Shown here: positions 3,390 through 19,689 of the stretch, piece after piece
How positions within the stretch are numbered: the stretch's first letter is position 1
Layout: the number at the start of each line of letters is the position of its first letter
DNA from: Nitrosopumilus sp. LS_AOA
GTDB taxonomy: Archaea > Thermoproteota > Nitrososphaeria > Nitrososphaerales > Nitrosopumilaceae
DNA: 38,610 nt
Assembly: GCA_001543015.1 (NCBI GenBank)
Contig: LFLC01000057.1
Span: 91,457 to 130,066 of the forward strand
Direction of reading: 5' to 3'
The notes under the pieces: generated by a model
Database searches by the model: none
What the model was told of the DNA's origin: nothing
The model's input: the letters and a program-made list of their open reading frames with translations, nothing else
Translations under genes and position numbers: made by a program

Positions 3390-3400
3390 ATAAAAAAAAG

Positions 3401-3474
3401 TGGGCCTAATGAGATTCGAACTCATGATCACTGCCATGTCGAGGCAGTATCCTAACCAGCTAGACTACAGGCCC
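3401..3474 (-). tRNA. tRNA-Val (GAC)
   Basis: This 74-nt cloverleaf can be folded by eye. The acceptor stem is GGGCCTG/TAGGCCC with A73. The D stem is GTCT/GGAT, the anticodon stem CTGCC/GGCAG with loop TCGACAT, the variable loop 5 nt, and the T stem ATGAG/CTCAT with loop TTCGAAT. The anticodon at positions 34-36 is GAC, reading valine codons GUC and GUU; discriminator A73 agrees with valine. CCA is not encoded, and a run of T on the minus strand follows at once and may end transcription. Position 33, nearly always U in tRNAs, reads C here. There is no intron. Confidence 0.93.
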
Positions 3475-3555: not shown

Positions 3556-4266
3556 TTGACAGATGATTTTAGTGAGCAAGAAAAAAGAGGTTTCTACAAG
3601 GCAATTTATTCAAGAAGAGACGTAAGATCTCATTTTAATTCAAAACCCATAAATGATGAAATTTTATCAAGGATTCTTCATGCAGCACATCATGCACCAT
3701 CAGTAGGATTTTCTCAGCCATGGAATTTTATTTTAATAAAAGATATGAATACTAAGAAAAAAATCAAGGAATCTTTTGAAAAAGAAAAAAAACGTTCCTC
3801 AGAACTAGTAGAAGAACCAAAAAGATCAAAATATCTTTCATTTAAGCTAGAAGGAATCTTAGAATCTACTGTAAATCTGTGTGTAACATATGATCCATCA
3901 AAATTTGGTCCATTTGTCATAGGAAGATCAAGTATTCCTGAAGCAGGTCTATACAGTGTATGCTGTGCCATACAGAATTTGTGGCTATCTGCAAGGACAG
4001 AAGGAATAGGTCTTGGATGGGTAAGTATTCTATCAAATGATACTCTAAGAGAAGTCTTAGATATTCCTGAGCATGTTATTCCTGTTGCATATCTTTGTTT
4101 AGGATATGTTGATGATTTTGCAAAGAAACCAGATCTAGAAACTGCAGGTTGGTTACCACGACTTGAATTGAAAGATGTAGTATACTTTGAGAAATGGAAT
4201 GATAAAGAAAATAAAGATTGGGAAAGTATTCAAAAAATGATCAAAGAGAATCTTGATTACGCTTAA
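3556..4266 (+). CDS. bluB: Nitroreductase-family protein, BluB-like 5,6-dimethylbenzimidazole synthase
   Basis: The 236-residue flavoprotein of the nitroreductase fold most resembles BluB, which fragments FMNH2 with oxygen to give 5,6-dimethylbenzimidazole, the lower ligand of cobalamin. Seen in the sequence are an N-terminal YSRRDVRSHF motif, APSVGFSQPWNF in the flavin-binding region, SIPEAGLYSVCCAIQNLWL, and GLGWVSIL; the SVGFSQPW and GLGWVS stretches are typical of BluB rather than generic nitroreductases. AOA are known cobalamin producers, and the cbiH-like gene at 13.6-14.4 kb fits. Translation begins with TTG at 3556; no better in-frame ATG exists. The gene stands alone between two tRNA-type genes. 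An ordinary NAD(P)H nitroreductase is the alternative. Confidence 0.78.
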   Translation: MTDDFSEQEKRGFYKAIYSRRDVRSHFNSKPINDEILSRILHAAHHAPSVGFSQPWNFILIKDMNTKKKIKESFEKEKKRSSELVEEPKRSKYLSFKLEGILESTVNLCVTYDPSKFGPFVIGRSSIPEAGLYSVCCAIQNLWLSARTEGIGLGWVSILSNDTLREVLDIPEHVIPVAYLCLGYVDDFAKKPDLETAGWLPRLELKDVVYFEKWNDKENKDWESIQKMIKENLDYA

Positions 4267-4290
4267 ATAATTAAGAATGATTTTTTTGCT

Positions 4291-4374
4291 GGGCTTGTGG
4301 CGCAGAGTCAAGTTGACGCGAAATATGGATAGCGTGGTAGCCTCCTAAGTTGCAGGTCGAGGGATCCAAGCCCG
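4291..4374 (+). tRNA. tRNA-Arg(CCT)-like gene with enlarged D-loop and truncated T-arm (possible pseudo-tRNA)
   Basis: A perfect 7-bp acceptor stem (GGGCTTG/CAAGCCC, G73) closes the element. It has a D-stem GCGC/GCGT and an anticodon stem GTAGC/GTTGC with loop CTCCTAA, giving anticodon CCT for arginine codon AGG. Two parts are abnormal. The D-loop is 28 nt instead of 8-11. Between the anticodon stem and the 3' acceptor strand there are only 13 nt instead of about 22, so the T-loop motif TTCNANNC is missing. An AT box (CTTAAATAATT at 4262-4272) lies about 25 bases upstream and a T-rich tract follows, so it looks transcribed. It may be a decayed tRNA, an unusual functional tRNA, or a tRNA-derived RNA. 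Confidence 0.5.
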
Positions 4375-4570
4375 TTTTATTTTAAAAATCTATTAAGTTT
4401 ATTGCAAAACAATATTAAAAAAATAAAAGTTTTTGAAAATAAATTAAAATTATACATAAAACAATTTTAAAAAATAAAAATCAGATGAAAAATGGTTGTT
4501 TTTCAAAAATACAGTAAAAAATGTTGAAATTGTAAAAGTAAAATATTAACAAGACATAGAAATTATACTA

Positions 4571-19379: not shown

Positions 19380-19532
19380 ATGGCAAAATATGACGGTCTT
19401 TTAGGACAACCGCTTCTTGAAGTTGAAGAACCAGATAAGGAAGGTGGAATTACATTTATTCTTAAAGATAATAGATTTTTATTCATTAAAGCAGTCGATG
19501 GAAAAATTGACACGGTATCAATCCCAGAATAG
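19380..19532 (+). CDS. Microprotein (50 aa), paralogue of the next gene
   Basis: The 50-residue product from ATG 19380 reads MAKYDGLLGQPLLEVEEPDK at the start, then a beta-hairpin-like ITFILKDNRFLFIKAVDGKI. It aligns with the neighbouring 48-residue product: M-x-KYD-x-L, an acidic middle, T-x-x-F, N-x-x-L/F-x-IK-x-VD-x-K. The shared pattern, two separate ATGs and tight spacing show that this is a real, duplicated gene pair too short for usual ORF length cut-offs. No family is known. It lies 30 bases after the stop of the gene at 18813 and probably belongs to that operon. Confidence 0.68.
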   Translation: MAKYDGLLGQPLLEVEEPDKEGGITFILKDNRFLFIKAVDGKIDTVSIPE

Positions 19533-19542
19533 GTGAAATGAT

Positions 19543-19689
19543 ATGGGAAAATATGATGAACTCAAAATGTTAGAACTAGTAAAAATAGAAGATTCTGATT
19601 CAGGTAGTGAAGTAACATTATTTTTTCAAGAGAATAAAACTTTGAAGATCAAAGTTGTTGATGATAAATTAGTTTCAGAATTTGTATAA
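19543..19689 (+). CDS. Microprotein (48 aa), paralogue of the preceding gene
   Basis: The 48-residue product from ATG 19543 (MGKYDELKMLELVKIEDSDS, then EVTLFFQENKTLKIKVVDDK) shares the KYD start and the IK-x-VD-x-K end with the gene just upstream, 10 bases away; a GGTGA just before the ATG may act as a ribosome-binding site. Both look like small all-beta proteins. The pair probably arose by tandem duplication and is transcribed with the 18813 gene. Function is unknown; a binding partner of the 178-residue protein is one possibility. Its 3' end is one base away from the convergent phosphatase gene. Confidence 0.68.
   Translation: MGKYDELKMLELVKIEDSDSGSEVTLFFQENKTLKIKVVDDKLVSEFV

Follow-up and report, generated by a model that had tools for sequence, protein, structure and literature searches.

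The 38,610-nt stretch of the Nitrosopumilus sp. LS_AOA genome that we analysed (hereafter the window) carries at positions 4291-4374 a tRNA-Arg-like gene that reads GGGCTTG TG GCGC AG[AGTCAAGTTGACGCGAAA]TATGGATA GCGT G GTAGC CTCCTAA GTTGC AGGTC GAGGGATC CAAGCCC G (Table 1). The acceptor stem, the D-arm and an anticodon arm with CCT are all present. The D-loop measures 28 nt and the T-arm is absent, the 5-bp stem and 7-nt loop of a functional tRNA-Arg(CCU) being short of 9 nt. This anatomy agrees with the original prediction, as do the promoter and T-tract it had placed around the gene. The TATA-like box is kept in genus orthologues even where the spacer behind it has diverged, and TTAAATAATTAA probably acts as the promoter. 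A tRNA-Val(GAC) gene lies on the minus strand at 3400-3474, in divergent orientation to the nitroreductase gene upstream of tRNA-Arg.

Table 1. Features of the tRNA-Arg(CCT) locus in the window.
Feature	Position	Strand	Description and basis
TATA-like promoter element	4263..4274	+	TTAAATAATTAA; overlaps stop codon of upstream nitroreductase gene; sequence
Exon 1, tRNA-Arg(CCT)	4291..4305	+	Acceptor 5' strand GGGCTTG, TG, D-stem GCGC, A14 G15; alignment to intron-less orthologues
Putative 18-nt intron in D-loop, after G15	4306..4323	+	AGTCAAGTTGACGCGAAA; absence in intron-less orthologues, helix compensation, length variation, predicted fold
Exon 2, first part	4324..4366	+	TATGGATA, D-stem GCGT, GTAGC-CTCCTAA-GTTGC anticodon arm, variable loop AGGTC, T-stem 5' strand GAGGG, ATC
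9-nt deletion junction	4366..4367	+	Lost GAAGCCCTC, the T-loop end and most of the T-stem 3' strand; kept by every intact orthologue checked
Exon 2, end	4367..4374	+	Acceptor 3' strand CAAGCCC and discriminator G; sequence
T-rich 3' flank, terminator-like	4375..4383	+	TTTTATTTT; sequence; T-rich flank also in most relatives

Neither ARAGORN nor the Rfam tRNA model at its gathering score called the tRNA-Arg(CCT) locus, both reporting only the tRNA-Val gene in the window. A DNA search of 61 related genomes nevertheless recovered the gene in 42, with whole-length matches across most of the genus and matches to its 3' part in more distant families. The genus orthologues are syntenic, sharing the upstream nitroreductase gene, the TATA-like box and, for the most part, the intron. 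Conservation and synteny of the locus throughout the genus exclude a chance resemblance to a tRNA; the gene is the orthologue of a conserved Nitrosopumilaceae tRNA-Arg(CCT). Under a covariance model built from orthologues, the window gene scores 52.5 bits, against 81-84 bits for intron-bearing members of the genus and 100-104 bits for intron-less orthologues, which places it about 28 bits under its intact intron-bearing counterparts. Judged by these comparisons, two independent and unrelated features are joined in one odd tRNA gene: a conserved D-loop intron and a T-arm deletion private to one genome. The original prediction was right about the anatomy and the anticodon, and right that introns cannot by themselves shorten a T-arm, the T-arm loss being a separate 9-nt deletion; its interpretation overlooked that the two features are independent, one conserved and the other private.

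The orthologues that lack the extra D-loop bases run without a break from GCGCAG into CATGGATAGCGC, the window sequence minus 18 nt, and read GCGCAG(C/T)ATGGATAGCGC, a normal tRNA (also written GCGCAG-(C/T)ATGGATA-GCGC). By orthologue comparison, the overlong D-loop is thus an 18-nt non-canonical intron with exact boundaries, and it would be removed from the pre-tRNA by splicing. Among 92 distinct orthologous precursors that could be parsed, the window's included, 83 carry the intron and 9 have none, and its length ranges from 17 to 29 nt. Within one genus, the gene of G025 (L065, G025:C57) is intron-less and that of its close relative G010 (L061, G010:C148) is intron-bearing; by alignment, the D-loop intron of tRNA-Arg(CCT) has here been lost cleanly and recently.

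The intron and its flanks form a recognizable splice motif. In the window it comprises a bulge AG^A, a hairpin GTCA/TGAC, a CGC/GCG helix with the exon D-stem and a bulge AA^T, the predicted cuts falling behind the second base of each 3-nt bulge. Across orthologues the intron likewise starts after AG^A and makes a hairpin, and its GCG(N) pairs with the D-stem strand GCGC; the AG^A bulge occurs in 81 of the 83 distinct intron-bearing genes, and the second bulge is AA, AG or AT ahead of exon 2. The exon-intron helix of the window has 3 bp and a G.A mismatch, which makes its motif a relaxed one, compared with 4 bp in most relatives. Both helices are supported because changes occur on both sides of their pairs (GCGC/GCGC to GCGT/ACGC in one; GTC/GAC to GCC/GGC or ATC/GAT in the other); three pairs show such compensatory change, a number that none of 500 shuffles reached. 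Folded alone, the window stretch is predicted to form CGC...AGA...GTCA-AGT-TGAC-GCG, the bulge-helix-bulge-like shape, with an energy that is unremarkable beside shuffles (z -0.29; a relative gives z -2.02).

Introns of this sort are an already known kind in Thaumarchaeota, where tRNAscan-SE 2.0 counts 107 non-canonical tRNA introns (PMC8450103). The present one resembles them in being short, in lying outside position 37/38 and in having a helix-bulge-helix splice motif; it differs in nothing essential, its central helix having 3 bp with a G.A mismatch. Heteromeric thaumarchaeal tRNA endonucleases accept non-canonical intron sites (PMC4090602). The genome encodes two tRNA-intron-endonuclease proteins above the PF01974 cut-off, and two such subunits would be consistent with the alpha2beta2 or heteromeric enzymes of Thaumarchaeota that are lenient for these introns.

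Two further genes were noted. The tRNA-Arg(CCT) at about 19450-19560 of G060:C36 (L069) combines the D-loop intron with another one directly 3' of the anticodon (CCGAGAGAAGAGA), and a second tRNA-Arg-like gene with anticodon CCG and a D-loop intron at the same position lies on a GC-rich contig (L064, G021:C73:2298-2379); the latter is possibly a duplicate with a shifted anticodon or of contaminating symbiont origin. Other readings of the window gene were also considered and rejected. A permuted or split tRNA does not fit, as the two acceptor strands stand in their usual order at the ends of the gene and the intron-less orthologues are colinear. A T-arm displaced into the D-loop insert fails too: the insert forms a hairpin of variable length, which is conserved in genes that possess a T-arm as well. 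A T-loop formed instead by GGG-ATCCAAG-CCC would consume the acceptor strand and is a fortuitous product of the deletion.

Relatives read GAGGG ATCGAAG CCCTC CAAGCCCG across the T-arm, where the window reads GAGGG ATC CAAGCCCG. The missing nine bases, GAAGCCCTC, lie between imperfect direct repeats, CGAAGCCC and CCAAGCCC, 9 nt apart. The gene was found in 84 of the 95 genus genomes searched, including all 56 good ones, and the T-arm is present in 83 of these 84, so that the loss is confined to the window genome; the nine bases are likewise kept in 160 of the orthologous loci fetched. Comparison with related Nitrosopumilus genomes, which the original prediction had proposed as a check, therefore returned normal T-arms in 83 other genomes of the genus, a result that fits an error as well as a true deletion. 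G305, the closest relative found, matches at 94.4% identity over 3.1 kb and has its T-arm intact. Outside the deletion, the exons show no substitution relative to the intact orthologues of G305, G008 and G061, even though the flanks have diverged from the window by about 6% (G305) to 18% (G008). Because the remaining exons are identical despite such diverged flanks, either the lesion arose very recently, or it is artefactual, or selection still acts on the gene; most likely it reflects a disabling mutation of very recent date or an error of assembly.

Several details of the surrounding sequence were recorded. The gene of the nearest relative contains Ns in its intron loop (GTCANNTTGAC) and 3' flank (L234, G305:C24), which suggests strain variation or low coverage. 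In L034, L053 and other relatives, the tRNA and the next conserved block downstream are separated by about 600-1000 additional bases that the window and L033 lack, and the contigs of G008, G016 and G034 terminate at tRNA-Arg(CCT). A remnant of an integrative element was rejected: the window holds no second copy of this tRNA's 3' end, and the gene is intact in G027, which shares the downstream flank. Loose-pattern matches that appeared to place the deletion in other genera are apparently intact tRNAs with a T-stem ending in CCCGC, as seen directly for f2 genomes.

A covariance-model search of the genome, suggested at the outset for listing its tRNA-Arg(CCT) genes, returned this locus as the only one, and tRNA-model, DNA and pattern searches of the assembly (1.93 Mb, 98.6% complete) yielded no further tRNA-Arg(CCT). 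The tRNA inventory comes from model searches, and counts from contig scans are to be read as "at least". Genes for an intact Arg(TCT), Arg(TCG) and Arg(GCG) are present; Arg(CCG), Trp, Glu(TTC), Pro(CGG) and Leu(TAA/CAA) are not among the standard tRNA hits of the genome. A second full T-arm in the genome belongs to the tRNA-Arg(TCG) gene at C35:206186, with which the locus shares a 22-nt T-arm identity. A tRNA 3' half scoring 24 bits at G000:C21:9736-9783 (L095) probably carries several non-canonical introns. AGG is rare, with 14 AGG against 160 AGA codons in 24 window ORFs, and tRNA-Arg(UCU) is expected to read AGG through U34 wobble. The proposal that a gene without a second copy may be essential is weakened because the intact tRNA-Arg(TCT) can be expected to read AGG.

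With somewhat better than even confidence, we propose that the sole CCT gene of this genome, with a spliced D-loop intron, has become a null allele through a recent T-arm deletion, AGG being decoded by tRNA-Arg(UCU). The pre-tRNA intron would be recognised as a bulge-helix-bulge in which D-stem GCGC pairs with intron GCG(A), the hairpin being set between the 3-nt bulges AG^A and AA^T, and the tRNA splicing endonuclease would remove the 18 nt to leave a normal 10-nt D-loop. We infer that replication slippage between the imperfect repeats was the probable cause of the 9-nt loss; because the deletion removed the T-arm, the allele would most likely be non-functional in translation, and the rare AGG codons would be read by tRNA-Arg(UCU). 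As in tRNA pseudogenes, one structural arm is lost, the gene falls under the Rfam tRNA gathering score and the disabling lesion is absent from orthologues, the nearest relative being intact; it differs from them in being the sole CCT copy found and in having as yet no other substitutions, so that no relaxed constraint is seen in the exons relative to G305, G008 and G061. The deletion itself is the only sign of decay, and the otherwise unsubstituted exons fit an assembly error or continued selection as well. That every one of the 56 good genus genomes has tRNA-Arg(CCT) implies selection to keep it.

The main competitor, which we regard as possible yet clearly less probable, is that the deletion arose as an artefact of assembly or consensus, or represents a minority variant, in an organism with a normal, intron-bearing tRNA-Arg(CCT). 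The deletion occurs in a single draft assembly, made up of 67 contigs, the other 83 genomes are intact, the remaining exons match intact orthologues, and the sister assembly G305 has Ns within the same gene; the imperfect 9-nt tandem and the T-arm shared with tRNA-Arg(TCG) also make local assembly trouble conceivable. Yet a clean 9-nt deletion with unbroken flanks is atypical of homopolymer or k-mer error, a 9-nt imperfect repeat is far below usual k-mer lengths, and the contig is unbroken at the locus. Of the readings offered originally, a functional odd tRNA and a regulatory RNA have less support than decay, or than an assembly error. T-armless tRNAs do function in nematode mitochondria (PMC7609411), and the intact acceptor, D and anticodon arms, promoter and unsubstituted exons would suit a spliced 66-nt RNA of that style, in which 13 nt would stand in for the variable loop and T-arm; after splicing, it would likewise retain a D-arm and lack a T-arm. 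We hold such a working tRNA to be improbable because the T-arm is conserved everywhere else. The mitochondrial forms are conserved and co-adapted, served by adapted EF-Tu and CCA enzymes on which they depend (PMC12221289, PMC7730189), whereas the window has a single deletion on an archaeal chromosome, conserved in no relative, and the predicted fold of its spliced RNA is no better than shuffles (z -0.56). That an archaeal chromosomal tRNA-Arg is spliced at its D-loop intron and then translates without a T-arm is likewise held to be very improbable. A tRNA-derived regulatory RNA, for which the remaining promoter-like box and T-tract are the sole support, is scarcely plausible: the deleted form is unconserved, there is no target evidence, and all other genus copies resemble working tRNA genes.

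The D-loop intron accounts for the failure of plain tRNA finders to see this gene, and, its limits being well defined, it allows intron retention to be compared with what looks like repeated loss at a single tRNA position. An artefactual T-arm deletion would call for caution with tRNA inventories built on draft genomes; a real one would represent an unusual loss of the only tRNA-Arg(CCT) in the genus and would offer a natural test of whether tRNA-Arg(UCU) suffices for AGG.
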